Assembly: GCA_021030905.1 (NCBI GenBank) | Contig: JAGFMI010000003.1 | Span: forward strand, 682,001 to 746,000 | DNA length: 64,000 nt | DNA from: Pyrenula massariospora | Taxonomy: Eukaryota > Ascomycota > Eurotiomycetes > Pyrenulales > Pyrenulaceae | Direction: 5' to 3' | In this document: one piece after another, positions 15,705 to 51,300 of the stretch | How positions within the stretch are numbered: the stretch's first letter is position 1 | How the letters are laid out: the number at the start of each line of letters is the position of its first letter | Made by a program: the position numbers and the translations under genes | Notes under the pieces: generated by a model | The model's input: only the letters and a program-made list of their open reading frames with translations | Databases searched by the model: none | What the model was told of the DNA's origin: nothing

Positions 15705-18659
15705 TCAACCAAAAAATTCTCCACCAACGACCTCCTCCCACCTTCTCCCCGTCTCCCATGTCCACTCCATAACCTCCCTCGCCCGCCGTACATGCATCAA
15801 CCCCACCTCCTCCACCCCTCTGATCCGCCCCAACACCTCCCCCCTCTCACTCTCTTCCAACGCCTCACACCCAGCGCTAAACATTGGGAACAGCAGACAC
15901 GCCTCAGCCGTTCCTCCGCGGCGGACGCGGACAAGCGAGTGCACAATGGCCTTGACCGCTTCTTGAACCAGGGGGTGATCGCGCGGATGCAGATACACGC
16001 GTCGGTATAAATGCAAGAGGCCGGCCCAGTGGAACGACATGTTCACGGCGAGTGTTTCGGGGGCGTCCCATTGGGCGGAGCCGCGGCGCTCGGAAGCGCT
16101 GAGGCGGCGGTTGGGGTCGCCCCAAGGCCCGCCGTCGACGGTCAGGGAGTCGCGTTTTGGCTGTAACGGGGGAGGCGGGGTTGGCGGGTCGTCGTCGTCT
16201 TCCCATTCGAAGCCCGGTGCTGGGGAGTGTTGATGGGGGCATGGGCGGTGGATGTGGGTGCGTGAGGCTTCTATGTCGATACGAAGCTTGTCGGCTTGTT
16301 GGAGGTGCGCGGGCGAGGGGGTCCAGGAGGGGTCGGCCGTGCCGGATGAAGAATCCAGGCGTGCGGCATCACATTGGCGGGCGAGGGAGGCGACTTGGGC
16401 AAGGAGGGCGACGCAGCGTGGAGTAAAACCAAGAAGGCAGTCGATCGTGTAAGGAGCCTCTGGGTTAATTTCTTCGTCTTCATCGTCGTTGATTTGGTCG
16501 GACCAGTAGCGGCCGTCGAAGAGGGGGTTTTCGTATCGTCGGCCTGAGAGGGAGCCGAGGACGTCGAGGTAGGCGAACCAGCGGGTTAGAAAGTATGGCA
16601 CTGGGTCCCGGCGTGAGATGGAGCCCGGAGAATCGCCGCGAGCGAGGATGATGCTCCGGGCTACGGCGAGATGATTTTGCCAGGGAATGGAGATGCCGAA
16701 TGTGGAGGGGGAGATAATCTCAAGGGAAGCGAGCATAATTGCTGTGGCGAGATTGGCGTTGCTGATTTGGGGGGTATTGGTGTCAGGCGAGAGGTCGTCA
16801 AGAGCTTGTCGGAGGGAGGGAAAGACATCTCGGACCCAGTGTGCTATGCGGTTGACAGGTTCCGGGTGGCAGAGAAGCCGAGCCCGGTGGGATGCTGAGT
16901 ACGCGAGTAGGAGATGAAGAAGCTGAGAATTTTCGACAGCCACTATGAACGTTAGAGAGGAATTGCGTTGCAATTTGAGTGGACATACTCTGTGGTAGGA
17001 CAGTCTTGAATGGATTCTCCGAGCAGTCGTGCGGAACCAGAATTCGAGCAGTATGGTTAAGGAAATGGTGGAAATATAAGAGATTCATAGGATTTTGCAG
17101 CAGAAACGGGGGTAAAGGCTCAAGAGATCGTGGAATAATGATAGGCACTGGTTGAGCGTAGTATCCTCCTTTGGCGAAAACTCTTTCTCTCTTTTGCAAC
17201 CCAAACCCGAACTCTGGGGAGGACTCGAAACTGTTAAGCCACGCCTCTAAATCACTACTGCTATCTGATGGGGTCACAACACTGATAGCGGCAGGGTCAT
17301 TGTTCTTAGGGACATCGAGATCAGGGTGACCACGATCCACACCATATGTTTCCGTCAGCTCCCTAGAAAGTATTCTTTGATGACTCGGGGCGCTGGCTGG
17401 CCGTGGAAAATTTATCTTGACTAGAGGAGATTTTACTGGTGGAGGATGTGGTTCAGGCTGGATCTTTGGCCGTGATTCATCAGGCTCTGGAGAGCCTGAT
17501 AACAGTGAGTTAACTGAGACTCTTCGAATATCGCCTGTAGACTCCGCGGTGACAGACGAATTGCGCTTTGCCATCCATCGCTGGTGTACCTCGTCTGAGC
17601 CTGCTGAGGATGAAGCGGCAGGCGTTAGGGGATTATTCATACCCGTATGCAACAGTGTCGGAGTCAGTGGTTGAAATTGAGGTCGTTGAACATCATCCAG
17701 GTCTCCAGGACCATAAGATGAAGATCTTGAGAGGCGATTTGTGGGGCGGCTGAACGTGTCACCAGTCGGGCTTAGTTTGACTCGCTTTGCTGGTGGGAAC
17801 GAGTAATTTGGATTCAGCTCGGCAGGATTAGAAGTAGGATAGGGCGGTGGCATAGGAGCATAAGAGCGGCCAGAAGGGAAGATGGCATTGTGCATTCCAG
17901 GGTTTGTAGGGCTATTCACAGAATCTGCAGGCGAGGGATATGGAGAGGTTGGTTGCTGTGATCGCGCATATGGATGTGTTGATGAGCTTGACGAACCATC
18001 TGAAGGTCTGGGAGGGGCTGGGACTGGAGGAAATGAAAAGTCCGGGTTGCCATGCCAGTTGATCGCGGGGACAGACGGCGGAGCGCTGGGCTGTAAAGGA
18101 GCTCCATAAGCTTGCGAGGGCGGAGCGGGCTCAGCAAGGATTGGAGGCAGCGAGGGTATTTGGCCCTGATTGTAGTAGCCGGGCGAGGACGTAGGCTGAG
18201 GGCTCAATGCAGCATATGGATCTGGAGGTAACGCAACAGGCTGCGCCGGGTTCGAGGCTGGGGTGAATTGCCCAACGGCAGGTGACAGGATCTGGGGTTG
18301 TGGAGGTGTAGGAGCGGTAGGACTGCTTGTCGCAAAAGACAACGTCTGTATACTAGGGTTGTCGTCCTCAGAGCCTTTCTTAGACCTTCCGCCCCAGTTG
18401 AGTCTGATGCTATAATCGCAGGATTCGCCCTGTCTTTGGCAATTTTTGCATACGGGCCTTTCCTCGTCGCTGAAATCTGTCAGAGTTGTTGCGGAGAAAA
18501 TTGGCGAAGGGGAGCAACCATTTGACTTTGCGTGCCTTGCATGGCCTAAATTCTGTTGTCAGTGGAATCTGGTGGACTCAAGAAGATGCCTACAGACCAA
18601 CAGCCGTTTCTACTCCTTTTCTTGGGTTCCGGCGCGCCCTCCTTTTTCGGTCGAGGCAT
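15705..18659 (-). CDS. Zn2Cys6 transcription factor with fungal-specific TF domain (Fungal_trans_2 type)
   Basis: Nuclear DNA-binding regulator, target unknown. Exons are 18659-18598, 18545-18519, 18469-16989 and 16942-15705, all in phase, giving 935 aa. The binuclear cluster is built across the first three exons: NGCWPCKARKVKCDEERPVC then KNCQRQGESCDYS. This gives the six Cys in CX2CX6CX6CX2CX6C spacing. A basic stretch precedes it (PKKRSR). About 380 residues of Pro/Ser-rich linker follow, with PAKRVKLSP as a possible nuclear signal. The C-terminal regulatory domain shows LYFHHFLNHTARIL, NPFKTVLPQ and LLHLLLAYSASHRARLL, hallmarks of the Fungal_trans_2 group. The first two introns interrupt the zinc cluster at C(W|P)C and K(C|D)E. 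The coding strand is C-rich through the regulatory domain and G-rich over the last ~190 nt. Confidence 0.88.
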
Positions 18660-21600
18660 GGCAGCGGTCGCAGGTTGCTGGCATTGATCTTTGGCGGGGT
18701 TCAGCAAACGTCTCGCCACGGAGGACTCGGGATTCGAGGAGGGGAAGTCGGCATCAACACGCAGGGCCAGGACAGAGTCGGCGGCGTTGGAGGTTCATGG
18801 CGATGACAAGCATGCAATAGACAAGATGCACCGTCTGGGATCGCAGGCATGGCAAAAGAGAGATCTACTGGTACGACAAGCGCAAAGGACGAATTGGTGT
18901 CTAGCGGCCAGCGGACCTCGCGAAGCGTTTCCCACTTCGCGCATGGATTCCCTTTGCGATCCTGCTCGATAAGCGGCACGGCCGGCTACAGGCATCTTCC
19001 ATGGCCGGTCCACACAGCGCGCTGCACGGGGCCACGCAGTCTGTTGGTTCATCAACGACGAGCCCATGCACCGAGCCGACCGACACTGGCGCTGGCAGCA
19101 TGCCGGCACGCTGGAGGTCCTTCCGGCTGTTCGTGTTATTCCTCCTGCGGTACTGGGCCAGGGCCTGGACTTCGTAATCGGCTGCCCGCCCACGTCGAAT
19201 GCTGACTGCTTCCACGTAGAGGCGCTCGAGCATTTACGTGATGTCTGCTATCGGTACCTGCTGTGGGAGAGCTGTCGTTGGCTGTGGGCGTTCCCAGCGC
19301 CTGGCAGCCCAACTTTCGGCCGGGTCCCGCCCGCACATCCGCACCCAGAAGGGCGGTCCACCGTTAAGAAACCGCCTGTTGCCCCTGGATCTGCGTTTCC
19401 CGCTGCCTAACAATGGTTTCAACGGCCGAGATATTGTTGCTTTTTCTCCTATTCCGCATGCCTGATGCCGTATTTAGCTGCGCCTTATTCTGGCCAAGTC
19501 GCTACAGAGTCACCGTATTGGCCGCTTCGCTAAGATTGTGCTGTTGGTGGTGGCATTGGAGGTACGTGATCTCGTCGGATTGAAAATCGTTGCAATAGGT
19601 AGTTTAGTAGGTATAGGTAAATACATGCAGGTAGTGGAATCGCGCTCTAAATGATACGAGCTACAATCCGAAGGCGCCTAGGCATCAAGCGACTCTGCCG
19701 TCCTACAACAGCTGATGCACTCTCTTAACACAAATACTGCTTCCCATATGCCTCTTATGGAAAGCCGTCCCTCACGCATGAGCTAATTTGTGAATCAACC
19801 TTCCAAGGCTCAGAAAATTCACCAGGGCAGCGTCTAAGCCTCCAATCTGGACAACCACCTGCTTGCCCAGACATTGCTAACCTGGAACCCAACTCCGAAT
19901 CCCGAACCGCAAAGCTGGACCCGCTTGCTGTGAATTCACCTCTTCTGCGAGATGTTTCCAAGTCTCGATGCTCCTTAGTATTGCAGCAATACTACCATCT
20001 GCCCAGACACCGAAGGCCAGGCTTGGTTTCCTCGATGCATCCTTCAGTGCGGAGATGATATCGGAATGCCTGCCAATGAAACCGCTTTTTGTCTGACGTT
20101 TGCAGATTACTGCTGCTTCTGGATGGATCGTACACTGCGAGGAGACAATTTTAGGAGTAGAAACGTGGTCGTAGACTTCAGAGTATCAAAACAAGTCGCT
20201 TGAAGGCTTTCGACTTGGACAACGTGGTTGAGAGGGTAAAATGAAGAGATTGAAACGAAGTCATCCCATTGGTCTCCATCGGAGGATGTGTATAATGAAG
20301 GATCACCATAGCATGGATAGCGTGTGCAGATTTCAGGGATAGGTTCCTGTATCCCTATCCATCACTTGTGTCTTTCGAATCTGGCCTAGGTAGGTCGGTA
20401 GGCATTAGCGGCGGACAGTACCCATCGACCTTTCGAAGATCTGCTAAGGGTGCTTTAACATCGTTCAGGCGAGTGGAGGGCAGCCAGAGGACGTGAAGTT
20501 GATGGTCGAGATGTCGTGTGATAGACCAGCCAGGGTCCCTATCCAGAGCCCGCGTCACGCGACGATCACGTGGGAATCCTCCGAGCAACTACCGTGCGAC
20601 TGCGCTATTCCCAACCTGTTGGCACAACCGCTTATCAGCGGTGTTTAAATCGTATTCGGGGACCGAAACTCATGACAATGGGAGCCTCAGAGTACGTCGT
20701 GTGAGTCCTCGCAGGCAGATGCCCAAATGTCTCAAGAGCGGCCATTTCAGCACACCTCTTCCAGCGTGGTGAAATGCTTTTAACGGCAAGCCCGTCACAT
20801 GTCTTCGCTTATTTTCAGCCCTATCCGCCCGCTGGGCTGGTGCAAACCACACAACAGTCGTCGCATCTTTGACGTCCGGGTGGCTTATTTAAAAGAGCCG
20901 CCGTCGCGAATGTCGATAGGCTATGTGCTGGGGGCGATTTTCCTCCGACGAGCCAATGCATCCCGTTGAAACGGCGAGGCTGGCGGCTATTCACAGAAAG
21001 GGATAGGAAGGGCCTTGATGGAGACCAATCAAGGCACCATCGCATTGGCGCGACATTTCAGCCTCAACGTCCTTCGTAAAAAGCCTGGCGAATCACCTGC
21101 CGAGGCTGTGGTGGACGCTAAAAAATCGGATTGGTTTACTGATTTTTAAAACCACGCGAGGCAGCTCCGGCTTTGAACCCCTGGCAAGACAACATTGTCT
21201 GCATCAAACAACGGGGACCACCATCACTAAGCCATCCCTCAGCTCGCCGGAAAGGATCTGAGTCATCACCTAGTGTCTCCGGCCATGCCCTCTAATCAAC
21301 GACGAGGTGTCTATGTTCTGCCTCGACAGGAGCCTTTTCCGATTAGCTCTACATGGCAAATGAGCAGCCCCGACGTTCACTCTCGCTTGGCCCCAACGAA
21401 CTCCCCTGGCTTCTTGTCACGCTGACTTATCGCCGGAGCGATTGATAATGGCATGGGTACAGGAAACCCGTCATGGCTCGGCGCACGCCCCGTCGCGCCC
21501 TGTCTATGGTCCAGGCACCGAGCGAAGGTGCGGCGTGATAGCACGATGACGCTTCATATAGGACCGCACAAATTCCCGAAAAAGGCAACGAGGCATCCTA

Positions 21601-21700
21601 TGCAAGCCACTCATTCGCCCGACAACATGGCTGGCTCAGCCTCCCTCTTTAACTAAACATATAATCCGCTACATTCTGGGGATTGTGAAAACGGAGCACT
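18660..21700. other. Long intergenic region between two divergent genes
   Basis: About 3 kb between the starts of the Zn2Cys6 factor and the TauD-like gene. From 18660 to about 19430 it is GC-rich and open in several frames on both strands. None of those frames looks like protein, so the openness is probably a composition effect in a long 5' leader or promoter. Between 21169 and 21234 a pair of Pol III-like boxes lies on the minus strand. Confidence 0.45.
21169..21234 (-). ncRNA. Candidate Pol III internal promoter (A and B boxes); tRNA-like or SINE-like relic
   Basis: On the minus strand TGGCTTAGTG (21234-21225) matches the A-box pattern and GGTTCAAAGCC (21179-21169) matches the B-box pattern. 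They are about 55 nt apart, slightly more than in an intronless tRNA. A T-run follows downstream on the same strand. I could not fold a convincing cloverleaf with a paired acceptor stem, so a real tRNA is unlikely. A degenerate tRNA-derived element is possible. Confidence 0.25.
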
Positions 21701-21748
21701 TATCCTTTGAGATATCTTTGAAAATATCTTCAAGAATATCCTGCTGGA
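21701..21748. promoter_or_regulatory. Four TATC cores at exact 12-bp spacing just upstream of the TauD-like gene
   Basis: TATC begins at 21701, 21713, 21725 and 21737. The units read TATCCTTTGAGA, TATCTTTGAAAA, TATCTTCAAGAA and TATCCTGCTGGA, a degenerate 12-bp tandem repeat ending 32 bp before the ATG at 21781. The reverse strand shows GATA cores, but none is a full HGATAR site, so a GATA-factor role is only a suggestion. Confidence 0.4.
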
Positions 21749-21780
21749 AAAGCTCCGACAAGCTGTTGACTTAGGACATC

Positions 21781-23082
21781 ATGGCTTCAACCACTGATTT
21801 CTACCCACCGAGTCTGCAGGCGAAGTATCACCTCGACAAGTTTCCACCACCAACAAAATCCCTCTCAAAGACGCCGTCGGCCGACATTGCTTGGGTCCCT
21901 GACCTCGAGAAATCCAAAGACAGGACCGCCAGACGAATGAAGGAAGAAAAGACTCTTGCCACCGAAGTTCCCAGGGGTTGGCCCAAACGTCTCCAAGGCG
22001 ACCTTGTGTGGCAGGAGGATGCTTTCCGAGACCAAAGCCAGTATATCTTTGACTTACATGCTCCTGATATTGCAGAGATTGAGTCCGCACTCTTGAAGGT
22101 TAAGAATGCGAGCCTTGATCTGGAATACATCAACAGATTTACGTTCCCCTTGCCAAAATTAGGGCCATTTCTCGAGCAGCTCAGTGAGAAGGTACATGAC
22201 GGGTGCGGTTTTGTTGTGCTGCGCGGTCTTCCAGCATGGACCTATACCAACGAAGAGAATGTCATTATATATCTCGGATTGTCAAGCTACATTGGCGAGC
22301 GACGTGGTCGACAGAACATGGGAGGTGCGAAATTGACACACATTACAGATGTCAAGTCAGCTGGCGTAAATGCCTCGGAACGTCGACCGCTCTTCTCAAA
22401 CCTAGCACAGCCTTTCCATGCAGACCTTTTCTGCGATGTGCTTGCACTCTACTACCTAAATGTTGCCAAGAAGGGCGGAGAACCATCGCTGGCATCGACC
22501 TGGACAATTTATAATGAGCTTGCAGAGACCCGACCCGACCTTCTGCACACGCTCGCTGAGAATGATTGGGTTCATGATACTCGTGGCTGCAATCCACCAT
22601 TTTACCAGCAACCCCTCCTCTACAACCATGATCGCAAAATCATTCTTAACTTCGCCCGCCGAGTCTTGACAGGGGCCCCAATGACGCCAAGGTCAAAGGA
22701 CATTCCGCCGATGACCGAGGCGCAAGCCGAGGCTCTCGACGCAGTACATTTTACGGCGGCGGCGCGCAGCATTAAGCTCAACACCAAGCGTGGAGACATG
22801 CTGTTCATCAATAATCTCGCCGTTCTGCATAGCCGCGCCGCTTTCGAAGACGATGATAATAGCACAAGATATGCCTTGCGACTTTGGTTACACAATTCTG
22901 AGCGGGCTTGGAAGATTCCTCCCGCGCTACAGTTAGATTGGGATAGGACTTACGCTCCACTCGAGGGAGTCGAAAACAAATATGAGACCCACCCTTTTGA
23001 GGACAAGGACCAGGAAACGGTGCAGACGATGGTCAAGGCTGCTGCCACCGACGTCGAGCCCGACGCGACACGCTGTGGTTGA
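21781..23082 (+). CDS. TauD/TfdA-like Fe(II)/2-oxoglutarate-dependent oxygenase
   Basis: Single exon, 433 aa. The N-terminal ~140 aa are specific to fungal members (ending near PLPKLGPFLEQLS). The TauD fold starts at about residue 140 with GCGFVVLRGLPAWTYT, then YIGERRGRQ and LTHITDVKS. The candidate metal motif is FHADLFCDVLALYYL (His and Asp), and the distal region is RGDMLFINNLAVLHSRAAF with its His, followed by RYALRLWLHN with the Arg for the co-substrate. All three ligand positions look intact. This subgroup is often annotated as taurine-catabolism dioxygenase and is found both alone and in secondary-metabolite clusters. It is clearly different from the enzyme at 7990-9335 (no intron, different N-terminus). 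Substrate unknown. Confidence 0.82.
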   Translation: MASTTDFYPPSLQAKYHLDKFPPPTKSLSKTPSADIAWVPDLEKSKDRTARRMKEEKTLATEVPRGWPKRLQGDLVWQEDAFRDQSQYIFDLHAPDIAEIESALLKVKNASLDLEYINRFTFPLPKLGPFLEQLSEKVHDGCGFVVLRGLPAWTYTNEENVIIYLGLSSYIGERRGRQNMGGAKLTHITDVKSAGVNASERRPLFSNLAQPFHADLFCDVLALYYLNVAKKGGEPSLASTWTIYNELAETRPDLLHTLAENDWVHDTRGCNPPFYQQPLLYNHDRKIILNFARRVLTGAPMTPRSKDIPPMTEAQAEALDAVHFTAAARSIKLNTKRGDMLFINNLAVLHSRAAFEDDDNSTRYALRLWLHNSERAWKIPPALQLDWDRTYAPLEGVENKYETHPFEDKDQETVQTMVKAAATDVEPDATRCG

Positions 23083-23457
23083 GGAACATCAAAGCTTGAG
23101 CATTTCTGGCCATTTAGTAGGACGACATGCGCTGGCTGCGTGTATTGCTTTTCACTCCCCCGCTGCAGCTTTTCATCTGTTGAGTTGGACATCTGAGTTT
23201 TTGTAGAGAGGCAAGGTTATACCATTCACATGGTTCATTTGCATGGTTTGGGGCAAGGAAATGTTAGGGTCATTTCTACTTAGGTATACTTTGTAGTACT
23301 GAGATCATGATTTTATTGATGTGTTCATGCATTAATGCTGTATGCCACCTTCTTATGTTCATAAAACCGCTGCGAAATTATCCGACTGTATGCAATTAGT
23401 ATGTACAATGCTTCTGATCAAGTTTGTACGACGGGGTCAGCGGGAATGGCGGTTCCT
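23083..23457. other. Convergent 3' spacer
   Basis: A 375-bp AT-leaning spacer between the 3' ends of the TauD-like gene and the kinase gene. There is no coding frame of interest; it probably holds both 3' UTRs. Confidence 0.45.
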
Positions 23458-39132: not shown

Positions 39133-40064
39133 GTTAGCCTAAGCAAAGCTCAGACACAATGTGATCAAAGGTCTGTATTAGATAAAAATGATGGTGGACC
39201 CGTAGTGGAAAGTTAGGACAAGTGAAAGGATAAAACAAATATGATGAAATGTGCGAGGATAAAAGAAAATGATGAGATTGATGCTCCTTGCTCAACGACA
39301 GTCACAAGATCGCTGAATTGAATGCCCTTCGACCCGGACGTCGAAGTGTTGGCTGGACCCCTCTCGGGGAACCGCAGCGTCGAGTTTTCGTCGTGCAACG
39401 CTGTGGAAGCCTTCGAAAGAGCATCACCAATCCTGTTGCTAGCGTGGCACCATCGCTGTAAGGCCTGTCATATTTACTCACACCGCTGAGCCGAGTCTCC
39501 GATCCCAGAAAGTGGACTAGCAATGATAGGTGTGAGCGACAAGAGCTAAACGTGTCGGCAGCGGTGATGAATTCAGCTGGTATTTTGGTGACGCCTTGGA
39601 CAGTGACACCGGTCGAGCCTATGATTTGGGACTTAAAAATAATGGTCAACAAGAGAGAACCGGCCGGATGCATGTTCTGGCTATCATTGGTCAAAGGCCG
39701 TGTTGATTCGTGGGGCCTCGTGATGAGTGTGGGCTTGCGTCGAAAAGATCGCGGTAAATCGAATCTATCAACCTCAACAGGTACTAATCTTCACGTTCCC
39801 GAGACATTGAAATCTATTCTGGAGGCTGTGCAGTGCATTTTCAACCTTACGGAAGGAGGTGGGAAAAGCAAAGGGCTGTAATTGAGAGGGTGGACATGCT
39901 AAGCTGAAATCTGCTAATTTAGCGTGCGAAACGCAGCAGCCAATTGAATTGAGGGTCATTAGGCCTATGGCTGTGCCAAGACCTGGAGGAGGAAACTTTT
40001 TTGCAGCCAACATACACGCTGATAAAGATCACACAGCCAGCAACAGACTCGGTCTTTGTCCACC
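39133..40064. other. Divergent spacer between the NLR-like gene and PAM17
   Basis: About 0.9 kb. Frames of 60-130 codons occur on both strands without family content. It should contain the promoters of both genes. Confidence 0.45.
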
Positions 40065-40934
40065 ATGGCCACCATGAAATCTCCTCTTCTTAACATAATA
40101 AGCCGCCAGGCGTCAAGTTCAGCATGTAAGCCAAGCTTACGATCGTCAAACCTCGCTCCACGGTCAACGTCAATTCTCTTCCCGCACCTGTCTCGGAAGG
40201 CTTCCACGTCGGTTACGACAGCTTCGATAATGCCATACAGATCTCCCTGCACCTTGACACTACAAAGTACATCCCCTCTACGCCAGTATCACACGCCACC
40301 GCCAGCCACTTCACCCCCAAGCTCTTTCTTCACGCCATCCCTCTGTCGCGTTCGCATCACTCATTCTCTCCCTCCCTCCACCCGCGCCTACACTACATAT
40401 ACAAGTCTCACCCTAACACCCTCCGCCCCATTCTCAACAACCGCCACGCGTTTCTTTCCGTCCCCAGATCAACCCACCTCCCTAACCTGGAACGCCTTCT
40501 TCACCCTCCGCACTGGCCAACGCCGCTACACCCTCCTCTCCTCCACCCTCTTCGCCCTCGGCACCACCCTCTGCGGTCTCGTCCTGCTCACCACCACCCC
40601 CCTCCCCGACACCCTCTCCACCATCTCCTCCCTCGACCCCGTCCTCACCTCCGGCATCTGCACCATCCTCTCCTTCACCATCGGCTGGCTCATCGGCCCC
40701 TTCTTCGGCCAGGCGCTGTGGCGGCTGCTCAACCGTGGGACGCTGGCGGCGTATGTGGAGAAGGAGAAGGATTTCTTCAAGCGGGTGAGGAAGTATAGGG
40801 TGGATCCGAGCGGGGCGAGCACGACGAATCCGGTGCCGGATTACTATGGGGAGAAGGTGGGGAGCGTGGCGGGGTATAGGAGGTGGTTGAAGGATCAGAG
40901 GGCGTTTAATCGGAAGAAGGGGGGTAAAGTTTAA
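40065..40934 (+). CDS. PAM17: Presequence translocase-associated motor subunit Pam17, mitochondrial
   Basis: Pam17 sits in the inner mitochondrial membrane and helps assemble the Pam18-Pam16 part of the TIM23 import motor. The start is ATG 40065 in an ACCATGG context, giving 289 aa in one exon; a second ATG lies at 40074. The first ~140 aa are rich in Ser, Thr, Arg and Pro with few acids, fitting a long mitochondrial targeting leader. The conserved domain begins with LTWNAFFTLRTGQRRYTL, followed by two membrane helices (FALGTTLCGLVLL; SGICTILSFTIGWLIGPFFG). It ends with DFFKRVRKYRVDPS, NPVPDYYGEKVGSVAGYRRW and LKDQRAFNRKK, all standard Pam17 blocks. The coding strand is strongly C-rich to about 40710, then G-rich to the stop. 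Confidence 0.93.
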   Translation: MATMKSPLLNIISRQASSSACKPSLRSSNLAPRSTSILFPHLSRKASTSVTTASIMPYRSPCTLTLQSTSPLRQYHTPPPATSPPSSFFTPSLCRVRITHSLPPSTRAYTTYTSLTLTPSAPFSTTATRFFPSPDQPTSLTWNAFFTLRTGQRRYTLLSSTLFALGTTLCGLVLLTTTPLPDTLSTISSLDPVLTSGICTILSFTIGWLIGPFFGQALWRLLNRGTLAAYVEKEKDFFKRVRKYRVDPSGASTTNPVPDYYGEKVGSVAGYRRWLKDQRAFNRKKGGKV

Positions 40935-43622
40935 GATCAGGATGAGAATATTGGGATCTAGGACGTATTTCGTCATGGAGCTTGGGAGACATGAGTTTAG
41001 ACGGCGGCAGAGGCAGCACGAGCGGAGAGCTTTTTGAGTGCTGAGTCCAGGTCCTGGTGCGGCGTAACGTCGGATGAACGGCGGCGAGACATCGGTTGCA
41101 GGGAGTTCAGAAATAATTCCAGTTGTACAACAAAGCAGCGCAAAGGTATCTTAGCCTGATCACGATTCCTGGTGCATGTACTGGTGTTTGGAGGACAAGG
41201 GATCTCATACGATATAGTATATCGCATAAATGGGACTATTATATGTCTAGGACTAGAAGGGGTATATCCAATGCCACTCATATCCTTCGAACCATTACCA
41301 GTATATTTCTTGCAGGCTGTAGGTGTGGACATCTCGCACTTGAGGGTACGCAAAGCCATGCTTGACCAGCGGCAGTAGCCTCGCAACGCCTCCATAATCA
41401 TGTTGTCACGGCGAAACAAATTTATTCGTGTCTTGCCGAGCGCGTTCGAGTAGTTTGATAGTGGTGCTTGATCATGAGGTTCTAGGGTGTTGAGTCGCAA
41501 GGGACGTGAAGACAGCGCGGAGCATCGAATATCTCAAGCCTCTTGACTCAGACAGACAGCTAAGTACCTTTAAGAGACTTCGCAAATGGATTTCCGGCGG
41601 TCCTGAAGGACGAGCGCTCTTTGTAAAGATAATTCGGGAATATGTGCACAGAAAAGAACACTGAGGGGATGGGCAATGGATATTCAATCTCTATTCTCCA
41701 AGACCATGGACCTCAATTGTTAGGGTCATGTTTTGGAGCCCACAGGCTTTGTCCATCTGCTCACGCGTAGAAGCACTACCAAGACACTTCCGATCAGGAA
41801 AGAGATCTTGATTGAGGAAAGTTATCGGAAACGGGTAGATCCGGGAGCTGTGAGAAATCATCTTGACAAAAAGGGAACACGATAAATTAGAGGGAGAGAG
41901 AACGGCGAGATTAGGGTTACCAGCCACGGGCCCAAATCCCGAACGTGCGTCGAACCCCACGCTTGCCCAACAATATTTGTCACTGTACATCATTCTAAGT
42001 CGGTTACAGGAGTTCGTGGTGACAAAAGTAGTAGTCCAAAGCACAAGATATGCTTCGTTTTGAAATAGGAAAGGTATACGAACGAACCTCCAACCGCAGC
42101 AAAAAGATGACCTATATCAGGACAACTCAAACAGCTCTTGACGCAATTTCTCCTTACTTGATGGAATTTACTGGCCAATGCCGCCGTACGATGACGATGT
42201 CCGCCTTGCTTAAGAGCCTAGATAATTTACCGTGTAGCTGATTCCGAAACGGTCTTCTTGCAACCATGCTGCACATGAGGACTGGCTAGAGAAGGAAGGC
42301 AGAGATACGGCAAAATGGAATGACGAGGCATAATAACATGAAAGATCAAGTTGATGTAAAAATGACGCTTAAGCGAAGTCGCCAAATTCAATCTGATAAT
42401 CAATCTTTTGCCTGGATGGCGCTAAACCCGTTTGGCACGGAAGTCGCAGAGCTCCTTCAGCTTCAAACCTCGTGGAAGACCGACACAACGCACATCAAAC
42501 AACATAGAGATCCGCCCTTCGGTGTCTTATCCTGGACCAAAGTTCTGGAAGGTCTGTCAATGGACTATCGTGCATGGCTGTAACCTATCTTGAATATTGT
42601 CCGATATACTGCGTTCAAAATTTGCTAGTAGTGCCGAGAACAGAACTACTAAAGGACGCAAGACAAAGCTTGCCCTCACCACCTCCTCTAACTATTATGG
42701 GAGCTAATCAGGGCCATTTGACTGACTATGTCCCTCTATCCGAAATCCGAAATGCTGTGCTCGCTCTTCATTGGCAACCATCCGAACCAGACTCAACAGA
42801 AGCTTGAGACCCCCTGCCGCCATCTTCTTAGTGGCCTCCCGCCTGCATTTCCCCCCAAGCCACCAAATCGGTCGGGATTTTGATTGGTCATTGTTCCGTT
42901 AGTTTTCAAGATATGTTGCAACGAAGATCTCAAGCTTCAATCCTAGTCTCTCCGACATAAAGCGTGGCCGCCTTTCTGTTCCAGCCAATATTTGAAAGAA
43001 TACTAAAAGCAAAATCCCACGCACGTCGACGCAGCTCAGAATCCTTCGATGCTAGAACGGGAAGTTATCTATGATTTGGAATTATGTCTCGGTGATGGGC
43101 TCCAATAGCTACCCTTTTATGGTTACCGGTCGGCTACCGGTATCGATCTGCTACCTTGAGGTTCTTACGATGTCAGTCATTTTTCTTTCTACGCTGCACG
43201 TGCTTTCTATCGTCGTCCTATTTTCCTTTCCTTGAATTGGACTCTTTATGATAATGGCCACCTATTGCATATATTTGCTCATAACATTGAGGTGGTCACT
43301 GTCACTCTACTGGTGATGTGATCCTTCGGACGATGAAGGATCTTGTTATGCATAGCAGTAAGCTAAATATGGGCCGTTTCGCTAGTGATAAAGGGACGTC
43401 ATCCGATAACCGAAAGCTTGTGTGCTCGTGTCCTTGTTCCCATCTGCCCTTTCGAACTGAGCGGCTTGCCTAAAACGCTTGCTTTGTCTAGCTATCCATT
43501 TCAAGTACCTAATTTGCTTTTGTCGACGTTCTTTTTGCAAACTCCTTAGGTCTCTTTTCAACTTTTTTCCCAATTATGGTCGTATATATCGTTTGTCTTT
43601 CTAGCAACTTAAAGTTTTCACC
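40935..43622. other. Intergenic region upstream of the NRPS-like gene
   Basis: About 2.7 kb. A minus-strand frame (41500-40997) ends with MSRRRSSDVTPHQDLDSALK and could be the tail of a small gene with introns, but I found no coherent upstream exon. Plus-strand frames at 42320-42807 have no recognisable family. The last kilobase is presumably the promoter of the synthetase. Confidence 0.35.
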
Positions 43623-46412
43623 ATGCACATTGACTCTTTACCGGCACTTCTGAGCGCCGCTGCTGATTCCAACCCGAATTGTGGCCTACTTATATCGGCC
43701 TCCGGCAGTACCAAGACCTTTGTGAGATTAACCTACCAAGAACTCCATCTCTTATCGCAAGAACGCAGCCAGCTTATACGACGCATCGCCGGGTTCGAGA
43801 AAGGGGCTCCTGTTTTGATACGCTTGGAAGACCACTTAGAAACCTTCATTTGGTTTTGGGCCGTCTTATATGCCGACGCAGTACCTGTCCTCGCCGGACC
43901 GTTCAGCCGGATTACAGAACAGCGTCAAAGCCACCTTCGGGGCCTGGCTAGCCTTCTAAAACGCCCTATTTGCATCACAAGCACCGATTTACTAGAGCTA
44001 TTTGACGGCCAAGATGGGCTCGACGTTTACACAACTCATACCTTACTGGCTGGCTGCGGCCATGTATCACACATCTACAACGATAATCAACTCTATCGAA
44101 AAGGCGACGATCTGGCGATGCTGATGCTCACTTCTGGCAGTACAGGAGCTCCAAAAGCAGTCCGCCTGAATCACGGACAGGTTCTATCTGCCGTGTGTAG
44201 TAAGGTGGCCTTCAAAACACTGCCTGTCGGTAAACCATTCCTTAATTGGATTGGATTGGATCATGTAGCCAGCATCACAGAAATACACTTGACTGCTATG
44301 CATTTAGGTGTCGACCAGATCCACCTCTATGCCTCGGATGTAATCTCTCAACCACTGGACTTTATCACCCTCTTAAGCCAGTACGAAGTCAGCCGAACTT
44401 TCGCACCAAACTTCTTCCTAGCGAAGCTGGTCACAGCGATTCGATCTCAAGATATTGACCGCGCCGTTGAAAATTTGGACTTGAAAGGCTTGACCTGGTT
44501 AGGCTCCGGAGGAGAAGCCAATGATGTAGAGACCTGCAGAGCACTCACAGAGCTTTTAGGTAAGTACGGAGCCCCGTCGAACGTGATCGTTCCAGGATTT
44601 GGGATGACGGAAACATGTGCTGGAATCATTTACAATCTTGATTGTCCCAAATGTGACGTTCAGAACCAGCGTGTATTCACTTCACTTGGGAAATGTATTG
44701 TAGGGGTGGAGATGCGAGTCACTCTACCTTCGGCTGATAAGACCATTGCTCTCTCAAAGCCCGACGAGCCAGGCAACCTTGAAGTGAGGGGTTCAGCCGT
44801 GTTTGATGGCTATTACAATAATGCTAAAGCAACAGCGGAAGCATTTACTTTCGATGGCTGGTTCAGAACGGGCGACCAAGCTACCATTGACCTTGAAGGT
44901 AATCTCAACCTAATTGGCCGGACTAAGGAGACCATGATCATCAACGGAGTGAAGTATCTTCCTCAAGACATCGAAAAATCAGTCGAAAAGACGCTAGCTA
45001 CGCAAGTATCTCGCATTGTCTGCTTTCCATATCGGGACCCGGGATCTCCAACTGAGCAGATCTGTATTGCTTATGCTCCTGTAGAAGGCCTTGGTGACTC
45101 GGAGTTGGTCGAAGTCCATGATGCTATTGTCAAGTTGGTGATGCTCCAGGCGAGTGTTAGACCAAATGTCATTGCCCTAGCAGACCAGTCACGGTTGCCT
45201 GTCTCGACCCTAGGCAAGGTTTCCAGGGCGAAAATGAGGACGATGCTGGAAGACGGTCAGTTTGCGGAAGAGCAACAGATCCAAGCTGAAATGATAAAGA
45301 AAATTCGATGCAAGAACGCCCAGCCCCCAGCCAACGAAGCGGAACGTCTTTTACTGGAAGACTTCCACCAGGTCTTCGGGACGGGCTCATCCTTCTGGGG
45401 CCGTGAAACACCAATCTTCGAAATGGGCGTGACGTCCATTGACTTAATCCGCCTGAAAAAACGCATTGAAACCCGTCTCGGTGTCGAGATTCCAACAACC
45501 ACCCTAATGCTCAACCCAACCCCCGGCTCCATGTCCGCCGCTCTCCAAGAACTCGCCACCCCAAAACCCTACAACCCTGTCGTTCCCCTCCGCACAGAAG
45601 GCCACAAGACCCCCCTCTGGTTGATCCACCCCGGCGTTGGCGAAATTCTTGTCTTTCTCTCCCTCATCAACCACCTCCCTGCCAACCGTCCCATCTACGC
45701 CCTCCGCGCACGCGGTTTTGACGCCACTGATCCCCCCTTCTCCACCCTCGACGAAACACTTTCCACCTACGGCTCCGCCATCAAAAAGACCCAACCCAGC
45801 GGCCCTTACGCAATAGCAGGCTACTCCTTCGGCGCCATGCTCGCCTTCGAACTCGCCAAACTTCTCGAATCTGCTGGTGACTCCGTCAAATTCCTCGCCT
45901 CCTTCAACCTCCCCCCGCACATCAAATGGCGCATGCGCCAACTGGACTACACCGCCTGCCTCCTTCACCTCTGCTACTTCCTCGATCTCCTCCCCGAAGC
46001 TCTCGCCCACTCCCTCGAGTCCTCCCTCCGCCCTCAAACCCTCTCCCGCCCTGATACGCTAGCTGCGATCCTCCCTCACGTCTCACAGACACGCATGGCC
46101 GAGCTGAGCCTCACTGCGGATAAACTTGCCAACTGGACCAGCGTAGCGCACGCGCTGCAGAGTGCGGCGAGAGATTATGAGCCGGCGGGGAGTGTGGCGT
46201 GTATGGACGTGTTCTACTGCGAGCCACTGCGCGTCGCAGCCGAAGATAAGGAGCAATGGCTTGAAAAACACTTGAGCAAATGGAGAGATTTTGTGAGGGG
46301 GAACGTATGGTTTCACGAGGTTAGTGGGGCGCATTATACCATGCTTGGGCCGGAGTTTGTAAAGGGCTTTGCGGGGCGGTTGGTGGAGGCTATGGAGGAG
46401 AGGGGGATATAG
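43623..46412 (+). CDS. NRPS-like A-T-TE synthetase of the arylpyruvate-dimerising (quinone/furanone) class
   Basis: Enzymes such as TdiA, AtrA/AtqA, MicA and butyrolactone synthetase adenylate aromatic 2-oxo acids and dimerise them on the thioesterase to benzoquinones, furanones or dioxolanones. Single exon, 929 aa, the usual length. Adenylation: A3 LMLTSGSTGAPKAV (168-180), NWIGLDHVASITEIHL (208-223, typical of this class), GSGGEAN (294-300), GFGMTETCAG (325-334), WFRTGDQA, IGRTKETMIINGVKY (431-445). The A10 lysine is in STLGKVSRAK (K532). Carrier: FEMGVTSIDLIRLK with the phosphopantetheine Ser605. Thioesterase: GYSFG with Ser735, and a late His in SGAHYTMLG (about 905). No condensation or reductase domain. 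No aromatic aminotransferase or prenyltransferase lies in the window. All core motifs look intact; the product cannot be read from sequence alone. Confidence 0.92.
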   Translation: MHIDSLPALLSAAADSNPNCGLLISASGSTKTFVRLTYQELHLLSQERSQLIRRIAGFEKGAPVLIRLEDHLETFIWFWAVLYADAVPVLAGPFSRITEQRQSHLRGLASLLKRPICITSTDLLELFDGQDGLDVYTTHTLLAGCGHVSHIYNDNQLYRKGDDLAMLMLTSGSTGAPKAVRLNHGQVLSAVCSKVAFKTLPVGKPFLNWIGLDHVASITEIHLTAMHLGVDQIHLYASDVISQPLDFITLLSQYEVSRTFAPNFFLAKLVTAIRSQDIDRAVENLDLKGLTWLGSGGEANDVETCRALTELLGKYGAPSNVIVPGFGMTETCAGIIYNLDCPKCDVQNQRVFTSLGKCIVGVEMRVTLPSADKTIALSKPDEPGNLEVRGSAVFDGYYNNAKATAEAFTFDGWFRTGDQATIDLEGNLNLIGRTKETMIINGVKYLPQDIEKSVEKTLATQVSRIVCFPYRDPGSPTEQICIAYAPVEGLGDSELVEVHDAIVKLVMLQASVRPNVIALADQSRLPVSTLGKVSRAKMRTMLEDGQFAEEQQIQAEMIKKIRCKNAQPPANEAERLLLEDFHQVFGTGSSFWGRETPIFEMGVTSIDLIRLKKRIETRLGVEIPTTTLMLNPTPGSMSAALQELATPKPYNPVVPLRTEGHKTPLWLIHPGVGEILVFLSLINHLPANRPIYALRARGFDATDPPFSTLDETLSTYGSAIKKTQPSGPYAIAGYSFGAMLAFELAKLLESAGDSVKFLASFNLPPHIKWRMRQLDYTACLLHLCYFLDLLPEALAHSLESSLRPQTLSRPDTLAAILPHVSQTRMAELSLTADKLANWTSVAHALQSAARDYEPAGSVACMDVFYCEPLRVAAEDKEQWLEKHLSKWRDFVRGNVWFHEVSGAHYTMLGPEFVKGFAGRLVEAMEERGI

Positions 46413-47181
46413 CTGGCAGGGAAGCGAAAGGGGACATGGTGTGAGGGACCTAAGAGGTTAAGTATGATATGGAGAGGAGGCCAATCGAATGTCAAAGAAA
46501 TTTGTTCGAAATCGGGATTTGGATTGCATGTATAGGAGTGGTTGATCTTCGGCTCAGAGTAATTTCGGTTGACGGAAGTTTTGGCACTTGAAATGCCGCT
46601 CCGACCACAGAGTGAAAACATCTCCCCAACTCAGGTTCGATGGTGTTTAGCAGTCGAGGCACAGTTGTCTCAAAATTCGAAGACATTTCCAAGTCCTGAA
46701 CCCAAACTCGATCGCCGCTAAGCTCCAAAACCCCACCAGTTGCCAAGACCGTTGGTACCATTAAACCATGTCCCTGGCTCCATGCAGGGTCGATCTTCGA
46801 GAACCAAGCCTAAAATAGAGCATAGAAAATGCAATGGCGATCAGGTCTTGATATGGACAATTCTTTTGATTCAACTTTCGTGGCCACTCTTATGTCGCTC
46901 GACGTTTCGAAAGGGCGTTCGCGAAGCATGGAGACCGAACTGCCAAGGCGATCCTCATGATGTCACCAGCCACGTAGAAGCAACGAGAAATCTCACTTGG
47001 GGTCCAAGGCTGGTTTGTTTTTCGTCTTATCTGTCTCCCCAAAGCTTGCAAACAAGGCATCAACGGCGCGTTCTTCACTACACACGCTCAAGACCGGAGC
47101 GCCTGGCCTGTCTCCCAACTTCTGCTCTGAGCGGACCCCCTTCAGCGTGGCCTTGCGACCCTCACGCCCCCGTGTCTCACA
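46413..47181. other. Spacer between the NRPS-like and FAR-17a genes
   Basis: About 770 bp with short overlapping frames on both strands, none recognisable. Probably holds the synthetase 3' UTR and the FAR-17a promoter. Confidence 0.45.
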
Positions 47182-48115
47182 ATGTCGCAGACACAGACGC
47201 ACCGAGCTTTAGACAAGCTTGTTCAGAAGCACCCTCTTCAACGGTTGGGCTCTCCTGGCCGTGGTCTCTCTGCTCTCGTCCACGCCATTGGGCTCGCCAG
47301 CTTCGCAAATCAGTTCCTCTAGTACGTCGCACCAACCGACCAAAGGAAATCTGAGTTCTTACTGACTCTCCACGTAGTTTGAGCCAGCACCCAAATCCAA
47401 TGTCAGTCATCCGTCCATGAGCTATCCTCCGCATACTTGTGAACCCAAATGCCTCTTACATCACCTGCAAACTATCTCCATCTGCAACATTACAATTCCA
47501 CCTTCCAAATTCCAATCAGCCATACATCCGCTAAATTAGCACCCGTACAGAAACACCTCCTACGGCTGGCACTTCCAATACCTCACCATCCTCGGCCTCA
47601 CCCTCACAACCCTCACCTTCACTGTCGCCCTCCTCTCCGACCTCTTCCTCTCCCCGCGCCTCTTCCTCCTCAAAAATACTCTCTCCGTCGCCTCCGCCCC
47701 GCTTTCCCTCCTCATCTCCCTCCTCTACTGGGGCCTCTCCGCCATCGACCGCAACCTCGTCGTCCCGCCCGACCCCGCCTTCCAACTCCCCCTCCCTACA
47801 GACCTCGGCTTCCACCTCTTCCCCACCCTCTTCCTCGTCTCGGATATACTATTGCTTAGTCCGCCGTGGACCATCACCGCGGTGCCCGCACTCGGGCTGG
47901 CTGGCGTAATTGCGTTTGGGTATTGGTACTGGATTGAGCTGTGCTACAGGCATAATGGGTTCTATCCGTATCCGCTATTCGAGATGCTGGATACAGCGCA
48001 GCGGGTGGGGCTGTTTTCCGGGAGCGCGGTGTTGATGGCGGCGAGTACGATGCTACTAGCGTGGGGCTATCGAAGGGTTAATGGGAAAGAGGTGCCGGGG
48101 AAGGTTCGGGGGTAG
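47182..48115 (+). CDS. FAR-17a/AIG1-like integral membrane protein
   Basis: The family (AIG1/ADTRP in animals) includes membrane threonine hydrolases acting on fatty-acid esters of hydroxy fatty acids; fungal roles are poorly known. Exons are 47182-47321, 47378-47401 (24 nt) and 47551-48115, in phase, giving 242 aa. The microexon supplies LSQHPNP, which links FANQFLY to NTSYGWHFQYLTILGLTL, the family signature. About six hydrophobic helices follow. Conserved residues include DRNLVVPPDPAFQLPLPTDLG and LGFHLFPTLFLVSDILLL. The late segment with HNGFYPYPLFEML is also conserved, as are the family His and Thr positions. The terminal exon is C-rich at first and G-rich over the last ~250 nt. Confidence 0.87.
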
Positions 48116-48935
48116 TAGGGTGGACTGAATGTTGACTGCATTTGCGGATAGCATGAGGGATCATACTATTTGCATGCACCAGGAGCAAGAGACGAGGTAT
48201 CGCGAGATTTGGTCTTAAGTGTTCGGATGCGTACAAGGACATGTTTGAAGTATGGGTTTTATTTTGGATAATAGGAGGAGCAGGCTAAACTAGACTAGAG
48301 GATAAACTAACTCTTAAGTATACGTCACAATATTAACACAGACAGTTCAGTGTTCTCGAAGGGGTGGCTATATAGACATCCAACTCCCCGGGAATTAGTC
48401 AGATAATCAATCAACTCATTTCATCTTAACATCCAGACATTGCCCATCCAGTGTTTCACCACATCTCCACAACGTCTCTACAACGAGTAACAGAGGTGCT
48501 TAGAAAAACCGACGCGGGTCGCCAGTCGCCAGAAAAGGGCCCTTCTCCCTCACCACTTAATCACCCCTGCACTTACTCTCCTCTCCAAACTCCGCAGCAA
48601 GTCCACGAAGCATGTCTCTCTCCCCTCCCCCTAAATCCCGCAGCCACCGTCCCGAGTACACCGCACCGCCCCGCCCCGCATCTGAAGTCATGCATCCTGA
48701 GACTAGTATTCAGGGTCAACCCTCATGTTGTCTCTCTCGACGCGTCAACGAGTCCAAACACTTTCTCGTCGCACAATCTAAGCACAAGTCTCCCGTTTAC
48801 CCGCAGAACAAGCAAGACATCGCCTTTGATCTTCTTCGACGCATATTTGATCGGATTGGTGTCGTGTGTGATCCATTTGACCTAACGTTCGAGAAGTGGA
48901 CAGGGAACGAAACTCTGGAAGGAACCCAGAGACTA

Positions 48936-48955
48936 TACTGTACTGTACTGTACTG
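48936..48955. repeat. (TACTG)4 microsatellite
   Basis: Four perfect pentanucleotide units, inside the 3' part of the weak frame at 48612-49019. Confidence 0.8.
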
Positions 48956-50078
48956 TGCATGGCTCACCGTTCCACGGCGTGGCAGTGGCAGTGGTTGTGT
49001 GCTCTCTGAGGTAAGCTAAGGAGACGCCGCGTGTGACTGCGTGGGGTTTCCTCACCATCCCGTAGAGGCTAGCGAGGTTAGTTATTGCCTGGCTGGGTTG
49101 AATTATTTTGAGAAGTTTCACAGCCCGCATTACATACCATACTTTCAACAGACCGAGAAATACCCGGAGATGTATCTGTACTCGTTCATAAATTGTCGTG
49201 TGCAGAGGAGGGGCAAAAGTTACAATCTGAGTGGCCCCACTGGCCATTTTACCCGTGGTCACATCGATGGACACGATGTCGACACGAAGGGTAAAATTTA
49301 AGGACGCAGGTCAGTGCCAGAGATGCATATCCCAAGGACTTGGAGGCGGTACGGCACCCTGAATCGATAGCATTTAGGATTGAAGACATTATTTTGATCT
49401 GGTCCACGGCGGAGAACGGCAGCAGGTGTACCAATGCTTCCGCTGTCTAGAAATGGTCCGCACTGCCACGGGCCTGAAATTGCACTTCTACAACTTCTAC
49501 GAAAGGAGGGCAAACTTCTTCGCCGATCCCTTCGAATGCTCGTTCCCGGCTCAATTCTAGCTCACCGCATCGCGCAATGCCGGGTGAAAGCTCGCACGAA
49601 GAACCACGGCTAGCCCCGAGACCCAAGCGTCTGGACATCGCTCTGGTGATTGGTCGATTTGTTCAGGCAAGCCACGGCTCTGAGATCTGCCGTCATCGAA
49701 AAGGAGGAGGGTTGGCCGGGTGAGAATCAGGTCACGACAGTGGCCGGATGGGCTACTGCAGCTCCAGTCCCGATGTCGCCGGCGCATTTCAAGCAGACGT
49801 TTCCCTTATCGACCCCGGGCGCGCTTGGGTCGTGCTATCTGGAATAATTCGCCCAAGAAATGGCAATTTATTAGCACGGTTTGCTTCCCAGCTGGAACTG
49901 CTGACCCCTCAAATACGTACTTTTAGAGTGCAACTTGCCTGCAGGTGAATTCAAACGCACGTAACCCTTATGACGGCGTCTTGAGCTCTCCTCGAAGGGA
50001 GCAACCGGCAACAATTTGCTGGAGGCATGAGATCTTATAGTTCATTCGGCGGAAAGCAGGGGATCGAGCCGACGGGTT

Positions 50079-50105
50079 TGGTGTTTGGTGTTGGTGTTGG
50101 TGTTG
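50079..50105. repeat. TTGGTG/GGTGTT hexanucleotide-like run
   Basis: Short tandem of about four TTGGTGT-like units with slight length variation. Confidence 0.6.
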
Positions 50106-50324
50106 AACTGTGGATGAGCATCTGGAGAATCAAAAAGCCGCAACGTTTGGGCAATATTCAGCGCCTGATACGATGTTGAGTAATTCCAGATCTGATGTTT
50201 TTGCTTTACAGGTGCTCGTTGTGTGGCTGTTAAGAATATGGTAATGCATTGTTTCTAATTCTCCTATAGAGTCATTAGTACAGGTAGCGGAGGATGTGGT
50301 GCCACGACCCCATGACTATCTCAC

Positions 50325-51300
50325 TCATAACCACCCAGCATCATCAATCGTCAAGTTTCCCCGCGTCAAGATAGCAACCACACACCACCTCTTCTCCTCC
50401 TCCTTCCCTTCTTCTATCCTCTCCGTCTTCCACTCCCTCGTCTCCCCGCTATACACATTGAATTCCTCGACCTCCTGCACCTTCAATACCCCTCCTGCCG
50501 CCTTCTCAAAGAAGTGGTTCACATCCCATCTTCCTGTATGAAACCCTGCGACTACCAGCGCAGCACCTCCACGGGCCAGAAAATGTCCAATTGTGCGCAC
50601 TAGGTCTCCATGTTGTGCGGGTTTCCACAGACAATCCGCCACGATCACCCGCGTGAAGGACCCTCCGCATGCGACTGCCGAGGCCGAGGAAACCGCCCCC
50701 TAGACGTGCGGAAGAGCCGTAACCCGCACGTCCGTCCGTGGCTCGCTAGGCGCCGAAGCCCCGTACTCGCCGGCGGGAAACAGATTGTGTTCAACATTCC
50801 TCCTCACTGTGCCCTCCGTCATGGCCGAACTCTGCGGATGATCCGTGATAAAAACCTCGTTGGCTCCGGCGAGCGCGGAGATGAGTGATGGTAATGCTGT
50901 TCCTTGCATACAAAGAGCGGACACCCCGTCAGTCATAACTTCAGCATCCCACTTGGTTAGACCGAGAAAACAACTTACCGGCGCCGAGCTCCAACACCCT
51001 CTCACCTCGTACATCCCACCATCCTCCGTCTGCTTCGGCATCCTCCAGCTTCGCCGCCACAACCACCGCCGCATTCCACAGATATTGCGCAAACAGCCTC
51101 CGTCCTTCTTCAGAAGGCGGATGTTCTGGTACCTGTAGTCTGATATCTCCGAACCGGGGCGAGGCGTATATGATGCGTCCCCCAGGGTCACCGTGGAAGG
51201 TGATGTTAGCGTCTGGATAAAGACCTATGAGGCCTGAGGCGAAGAAGTCCTCCGGTTGGGGAGCTGGCGGGGTCACGGGGCGGATGCGGGAGAGGAGCAT
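50325..51300 (-). pseudogene. Seven-beta-strand methyltransferase (Nnt1/EFM7-like group) with one in-frame TAG
   Basis: SAM-dependent methyltransferase related to fungal proteins annotated as nicotinamide N-methyltransferase. Exons are 51300-50979 and 50902-50325. The 75-nt intron keeps frame and completes motif I, RVLELGAGTALPSLISALAG. Other blocks are FAQYLWNAAVVVA before motif I, VFITDHPQ (acidic motif) and VIVADCLWKPAQHGDLV after it. One TAG at 50702-50700 lies in the middle of the domain, where relatives have Trp (PHVWG); the frame is otherwise open to the natural stop. It is a single G-to-A type change (TGG to TAG) in a CpA context on the other strand. Possible explanations are a recent null allele, a sequencing error, or readthrough. 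Truncation there would remove the substrate-side half. The last ~200 coding nt are G-rich. Confidence 0.7.

Follow-up and report, generated by a model that had tools for sequence, protein, structure and literature searches.

Step-like C-to-G switches in third codon positions toward the 3' ends of genes in Pyrenula massariospora, a strong form of fungal intragenic GC skew

Fungal genes are known to carry an intragenic GC skew. In the sections consulted, McLean & Tirosh 2011 (PMC3315797) describe for most fungi examined a C-biased gene body and a short G-biased 3' end, which often extends into the untranslated region. Their species include filamentous ascomycetes such as Aspergillus, Botrytis, Sclerotinia and Stagonospora. 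Four-fold degenerate and non-degenerate positions are both involved, in many genes and not in all (33% significant in C. albicans). In most species the C bias is strongest at the promoter or the 5' end, and the AT skew is flat along the gene. The values are species averages, with linear ramps fitted for C. albicans, and the GC skew is negatively correlated with GC content. The authors did not decide on the cause, which could be transcription-phase-specific mutation or an avoidance of C where transcripts end. Here we describe a pattern of this kind, with switches from C-ending to G-ending codons inside single genes, in a stretch of 64,000 nt from Pyrenula massariospora (contig JAGFMI010000003.1, positions 682,001 to 746,000; hereafter the window) and in other contigs of the same genome. 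An earlier note on the window knew of no named phenomenon that fits; the average pattern reported in 2011 answers this.

Related skews have been reported at other places in the gene, as far as the consulted parts of the sources go. Fujimori et al. 2005 (PMC555766) found a C-rich skew at transcription and translation starts of plants and some fungi, with transcription as the proposed cause. A CG skew near starts is also described for Leptosphaeria (PMC3411245). In their consulted parts, neither this source nor PMC10030826 and PMC2467506 hold anything on a 3' inversion. For eukaryotes, Zahdeh & Carmel 2019 (PMC6892556) found a preference for A-ending codons and a deficit of G-ending ones in the last 15–30 codons. 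Step-like or mirror-image arms in fungal genes were absent from the matches listed in a limited search of the open-licence literature (titles and starts of abstracts).

In the window, 15 open reading frames (ORFs) were scanned for the best C-to-G change point among codons ending in G (G3) or C (C3), with 500 synonymous-codon shuffles as the null (p floor 0.002). Four genes switched (p = 0.002 each), their likelihoods each exceeding those of all 500 shuffles: a transcription factor (TF) gene on the minus strand at 15911, PAM17 at 40710, a nonribosomal peptide synthetase (NRPS)-like gene at 46152 and the last exon of a FAR-17a gene at 47840, which is 204, 222, 258 and 273 nt before the stop, respectively (Table 1). 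Their Pfam matches were Fungal_trans_2, Pam17, AMP-binding/PP-binding/thioesterase and FAR-17a. For the whole NRPS-like ORF, G3/(G3+C3) was 151/478 before the switch. The PF08566 match of PAM17 (residues 133–285) runs across both the C-rich and the G-rich side of the switch, hereafter the C arm and the G arm. An overlapping antisense gene was rejected as the cause for PAM17, because the Pam17 domain is continuous through both arms and the sense frame is therefore real there.

The earlier note had listed five switching genes, and these four stood. The fifth, a methyltransferase-like ORF, was not confirmed (p = 0.12) and has a G-rich end only: its final 180 nt contain 81 G and 15 C, no C-rich stretch precedes these, and the 3' flank shows no enrichment in G. 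Its frame is broken by an in-frame TAG at 50700–50702 (minus strand), between ORFs 50703–51224 and 50325–50699; the TAG may be removed by splicing or may be a lesion. Both pieces were without a Pfam match at 0.001. Two further observations of the note were borne out. Only the carrier/thioesterase part of the NRPS-like gene takes part (codons 619–805), codons 0–300 having a mild C lean (C104 G51) and codons 300–560 none (C60 G66). The remaining window genes were described as lacking the switch, and none of the other 10 ORFs tested reached p < 0.01 for C-to-G (the HET ORF at 4530–6140 had p = 0.05). By p alone, a weak G-to-C change was found in 2/21 window ORFs (log-likelihood ratio, LLR, 3.8 and 4.7), one of which lies within the NRPS-like ORF. 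The GC content at third positions (GC3) of the NRPS-like gene (43623–46412) is ~0.5 in the adenylation part and 0.63–0.72 in the carrier/thioesterase part; a composite origin of the gene could be an alternative source of this difference.

The sample outside the window covered 240 kb (0.6%) of the 37.8 Mb source genome. It consisted of 20 stretches of 10 kb, at the same fixed coordinate on contigs C1–C20, and of four later stretches (L022–L025), two of which flank the window. ORFs were taken stop-to-stop and greedily non-overlapping, and some are internal exons or spurious. The note had proposed aligning the skew on stop codons, and this extended the pattern beyond the window: in 50 ORFs of at least 250 aa from the 20 stretches, the mean third-position skew per 90 nt back from the stop was +0.244, +0.136, -0.038 and -0.111, so that it inverts within ~180 nt of the stop. 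In the 90 nt nearest the stop G3 was up to 0.342 and C3 down to 0.208. Four-fold degenerate positions took part, both in the stop-aligned ORFs and in the 22 strong switch ORFs treated below. Among 66 sample ORFs of at least 200 aa, 21 switched C-to-G and two G-to-C, by the p cut alone (p ≤ 0.01). The later counts add an LLR cut of 8. Outside the window they gave 29/182 C-to-G and 1/182 G-to-C for ORFs of at least 120 aa, and 22/77 and 1/77 for those of at least 200 aa; with the window included, 33/235 and 1/235 ORFs switched. The pattern is no oddity of the window and is real across the sampled contigs.

Strong switches were also searched for in the DNA irrespective of reading frame (|D| ≥ 0.6, window included). 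Inside ORF interiors, which make up 45% of the scanned sequence, lay 38/54 of the C-to-G and 5/45 of the G-to-C switches (p = 1.4e-9). The skew therefore tends to alternate, C-to-G within genes and G-to-C between them. Since a C-to-G switch reads the same in reverse complement, its occurrence on either strand, which had been taken as evidence, is no separate evidence, and only the 3' position counts. The link to gene direction comes from the displacement of the switch toward the 3' end: its relative position along the ORF was 0.38–0.92 and not uniform (p = 0.0008, 25 switch ORFs of at least 200 aa). The distance to the stop was 108–990 nt over the 33 switch ORFs. The last ~190–300 nt, as first described, are typical and express a tendency toward the 3' end, but they are no rule.

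Switch genes showed no clustering in the same stretch (11 pairs, 18.6 under the null, p = 0.88). The skew of the last 60 codons in 97 ORFs was distributed in one broad peak, with a shoulder on the positive side (11 ORFs at 0.6–0.8, three above), and clean bimodality was not found. As sequence patterns, exact period-3 runs of C and of G separated the two directions weakly, with few matches (e.g., runs of seven matched 6 vs 1 times), and avoidance patterns that allowed mismatches gave zero separation of C-to-G from G-to-C. Two regions of the sample, L002:1704-2508 and L013:817-1513, had a strong C-to-G inversion (at 2026 and 1205) between two G-to-C inversions, with no listed ORF of at least 150 aa covering them. 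They are perhaps short-exon genes or non-coding transcripts.

High GC3 predicts the switch, and apparently does so better than an informal division into core and accessory genes. The switch occurred in 0/30 ORFs with GC3 below 0.50, and in 17/21 above 0.60. The proposed division held in part. Core genes with a switch were PAM17, Spc19, ATP10, SF3a60, a MIF4G_like_2 exon, which we take to be CBP80-like, and 6/12 proteasome genes, but G6PD, transketolase, FIT and a DEAD-box helicase lacked a strong one, and one HET gene (L011:743-2263) has a switch 726 nt ahead of the stop. HET genes form a very large family in this genome, with at least 150 scored matches among 362 first-look candidates, and one of them, the ORF mentioned above, lies in the window.

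For the proteasome set, 14 of 20 matches were taken, giving 12 distinct genes with putative last exons; L039 and L035 are one ORF, and L038, just upstream of L037, was treated with it as one gene. The six C-to-G switches passed LLR ≥ 8 and p ≤ 0.01, L036 missed the LLR cut at 7.5, and G-to-C switches were found in 0/12. One of the six, L035, had already been counted in L018. Pfam queries covered 60/66 sample ORFs of at least 200 aa, leaving out L009:2923-7683, L015:92-760, L015:743-1387, L018:7476-8123, L018:260-874 and L020:7934-8536, as well as the ORFs of L022–L025. Two ORFs with strong and far switches, L006:1306-2352 and L007:54-1235, had no Pfam match. The SHMT match (L012:8497-9111) covers the N-terminal exon only and is uninformative on the 3' end.

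The C-rich and G-rich sides of the switch are nearly each other's reverse complement. We compared the arms in two sets, the 22 of the 33 switch ORFs that reach LLR ≥ 15 and 17 Pfam-supported genes (11 ORFs plus the 6 proteasome genes). At four-fold sites of the 22 ORFs, the C arms had A.124, C.60, G.17 and T.103, and the G arms A.131, C.12, G.63 and T.120. From C arms to G arms, the C share of Y-ending codons changed from 0.81 to 0.39 and the G share of R-ending codons from 0.46 to 0.85. The 0.81 of the former in C arms lies near the 0.85 of the latter in G arms. The intervals for the departure from exact complementarity included 0 in 6/6 measures for the 22 ORFs (one barely, -0.001 to 0.12), and in 5/6 for the Pfam-supported genes. 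All eight four-fold families flip the same way, the codon sets of the two arms are near complements, and GC3 is raised in C arms and G arms alike.

The switch is often abrupt. Of the 33 switch ORFs the 24 strongest were fitted, and in 22 of these a step was better than a logistic ramp by more than 4 units of the Akaike information criterion; of the other two, one was near even (1.5) and one preferred the ramp (2.2). The 95% bound on the 10–90% width was at most 100 nt in 9/24 ORFs, the tightest being PAM17 (Table 1) and the MIF4G_like_2 exon (≤36 nt). Wide or poorly bounded transitions were those of the TF gene (191 nt, bound 340) and of an NmrA-like gene (L002:659; 359 nt, bound 560). The C arm of the MIF4G_like_2 exon (L020:4301-5239, minus strand) also contains short runs of G-ending codons, like small islands of the other phase.

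The skew reaches beyond the third codon position. In the first three 50-nt bins past the stop it was +0.31, +0.24 and +0.11 in the 33 switch ORFs, vs -0.03, +0.07 and -0.06 in 34 non-switch ORFs, that is, the G bias persists ~150 nt beyond the stop in the former and is near zero in the latter. In the 100 nt 5' of the ORFs, whose starts are putative gene starts, the skew was -0.136 and -0.096 in switch ORFs vs +0.02 and +0.03 in non-switch ORFs. At codon positions 1 and 2, G/(G+C) rose by 0.23 each across the switch in the 17 Pfam-supported genes, with intervals excluding 0; the largest swing is that of the third position. The predicted intron before the last FAR-17a exon, picked for lying in a switch gene, is C-rich like the C arm of this gene.

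Table 1 Coordinates of switch-related features in the window. G3 fractions are G3/(G3+C3); other G and C values are base counts.
Feature	Positions	Strand	Details
TF C-rich arm, last ORF (Fungal_trans_2)	15912..17084	-	G3 56/256; Pfam PF11951
TF G-rich arm, last 204 nt + stop codon	15705..15911	-	G3 43/47
TF G-rich 3' flank	15605..15704	-	first 100 nt past stop G31 C14; beyond, C ≥ G
PAM17 C-rich arm	40065..40709	+	G3 27/145; 30-codon bins G1C28, G1C26; near-pure C3 ~450 to 270 nt before stop
PAM17 G-rich arm	40710..40934	+	G3 51/59; transition ≤22 nt wide (profile likelihood)
PAM17 G-rich 3' flank	40935..41084	+	G57 C26 in 150 nt
NRPS-like C-rich arm, carrier/thioesterase part only	45480..46037	+	third positions C121 G13; Pfam domains
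NRPS-like G-rich arm	46152..46412	+	G3 43/56
NRPS-like G-rich 3' flank	46413..46562	+	G52 C17 in 150 nt
Predicted C-rich intron 5' of last FAR-17a exon	47402..47551	+	GT...AG, boundaries by eye; G16 C52 in 150 nt
FAR-17a/AIG1-like C-rich arm	47552..47839	+	G3 6/89 counted from 47540; PF04750
FAR-17a/AIG1-like G-rich arm	47840..48115	+	G3 48/62
FAR-17a G-rich 3' flank	48116..48315	+	G59 C27 in 200 nt
Methyltransferase-like ORF, G-rich end without C-rich arm	50325..50507	-	G3 37/42 vs 19/34 before, p = 0.12; 90-nt bins G39 C7, G42 C8

The pattern is probably the product of a strand-polar, transcription-linked DNA process that reverses its polarity before the gene end, within the fungal intragenic GC-skew pattern. 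One such process, a bias in mutation, repair or fixation that is coupled to RNA polymerase II, would keep a single polarity along the gene body and show the reverse polarity in the final few hundred bases, as far as roughly the end of the transcript. The reversal might lie where the polymerase alters its state ahead of termination, or where it meets antisense transcription. Another force would raise GC, and the polar process would set the extra S base as C or as G. We favour this reading. The signals in the 3' flank and at codon positions 1 and 2, together with the near complement symmetry, make codon selection unlikely as the sole cause. The transcription-linked process already suggested in the earlier note is compatible with the skew inversion near stops beyond the window and with its DNA-level reach into the 3' flank, the intron and positions 1 and 2. 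We infer the part played by transcription, as well as the cause of the sharp boundary.

Several results weigh against a transcription-linked process. A step of few codons is sharper than we would expect from a smooth transcription gradient, and a fixed termination zone fails to explain the spread of switch-to-stop distances. The symmetry is not exact in the Pfam-supported genes, where T in C arms minus A in G arms was -0.061 (interval -0.098 to -0.027). Among ORFs of at least 200 aa, 72/97 had no strong switch. The consulted sections of McLean & Tirosh (PMC3315797) report very weak correlations with expression. Intron skew and flanking skew were uncorrelated (rho -0.07, p = 0.77) in a splice and branch motif survey of 21 unverified candidates; none of these has flanks with |skew| > 0.3, and the survey was therefore given little weight.

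It is possible, if unlikely, that the arms are two self-reinforcing, mirror-image compositional phases split by a domain wall, the strand-polar process feeding on its own skew. Sense and antisense R-loops or polymerase states, for example, would compete over one piece of DNA, each stretch would become fixed on C only or on G only at its synonymous sites, and the boundary would sharpen to a few codons. Gene-specific steps would then add up to the ramp of the published averages, and the wall would be the meeting point of the two polarities.

Selection at the RNA level is a doubtful source of the pattern. Here one-base arms would prevent local folding of a GC-rich mRNA, or the arms would be kept to pair with each other. 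The company of high GC3 fits this, and the arms of the 33 switch ORFs are indeed less folded than their synonymous shuffles (mean z +0.79 for C arms, +1.35 for G arms), while up to 200 codons round the boundary fold more (mean z -1.36). Such folding effects are, however, the physical consequence of any skew of this form, and complement symmetry is not predicted. The wall itself is more structured (mean z -0.7), contrary to simple avoidance, and the 3' flanks and one predicted intron carry the skew too.

We are similarly doubtful of double-strand breaks or replication origins flanking the genes, where strand-specific exposure (resection, leading and lagging synthesis) would flip the skew from G to C at intergenic sites and from C to G in genes, independently of transcription. 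The strand symmetry of the C-to-G switch and the location of 40/45 G-to-C flips outside ORF interiors agree with such a source, but the switch is displaced toward the ORF 3' end, and the sites seem far too numerous for replication origins. G arms are also found on genes that converge with their downstream neighbour, which then offers no promoter. A convergent downstream neighbour (ORF of at least 200 aa within 2.5 kb) was present in 14/23 switch ORFs vs 16/39 non-switch ORFs (p = 0.19), with four reciprocal pairs counted twice. A promoter-linked origin of the G arm is likewise not favoured, as convergent 3' ends carry G arms too.

Translational selection, in which C-ending codons would be the optimal ones within the gene and those ending in G would be preferred close to the stop, for termination or folding, is quite improbable. 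In its favour, the consulted sections of McLean & Tirosh (PMC3315797) describe an enrichment of C at the third base of efficient codons, the third-position swing is the largest, and the 21-candidate survey left intron skew unlinked to flanking skew. Translation alone cannot explain the switch, however, because codon positions 1 and 2, the 3' flanks and the predicted FAR-17a intron share the skew. The eight four-fold families flipping alike, into near-complement codon sets, would also be unexpected from tRNA preferences.

Simple deamination (C to T, A to G) of a non-template strand that 3' R-loops leave exposed is highly improbable: the two-fold sites shift accordingly, and most G-arm bins have, as predicted, more T than A when all third positions are counted, but A and T at four-fold sites stay level between the arms of the 22 ORFs and have the wrong sign in the Pfam-supported G arms (A.189, T.120), GC3 is up in both arms, and the consulted sections of McLean & Tirosh (PMC3315797) likewise argue against C-to-T deamination.

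The step-like walls and the near mirror-image arms give the 2011 question of mutation vs selection sharp coordinates in each gene. The walls are directly comparable with transcript ends, antisense transcripts, R-loops, nucleosomes and recombination maps. The assumption of a single codon usage per gene misreads such genes, in codon-usage statistics, gene finders and tests for horizontal transfer.

Human gene ends reportedly have a G-rich non-template strand, and Ginno et al. 2013 are said to have connected 3' GC skew with R-loops and termination in human genes. An abrupt C-rich counterpart is not known to belong to that picture, and the pattern described here is one of sequence composition. The skew of Fujimori et al. 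(PMC555766) is alike in that the coding strand has more C than G in the 5' part of genes; unlike ours it concerns starts, and the abstract of that study is without a 3' inversion. Zahdeh & Carmel (PMC6892556), in the parts consulted, describe across species a change of codon usage toward the 3' end, as we do for this fungus, but of opposite sign, as G3 rises here to 0.342. The consulted description of McLean & Tirosh (PMC3315797) is the closest: C bias in the body, G bias at the 3' end, involvement of four-fold sites and of positions 1 and 2, and extension into the 3' flank, over ~150 nt here. In contrast to it, many single genes here change in a step, their arms are nearly mirror images, and the switch depends strongly on high GC3. 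Their gradual ramp is not matched by the strong single genes; as a feature of averages, it does not exclude the present pattern from the same kind. The pattern in P. massariospora is a strong, often step-like form of the published and unexplained fungal intragenic GC skew.

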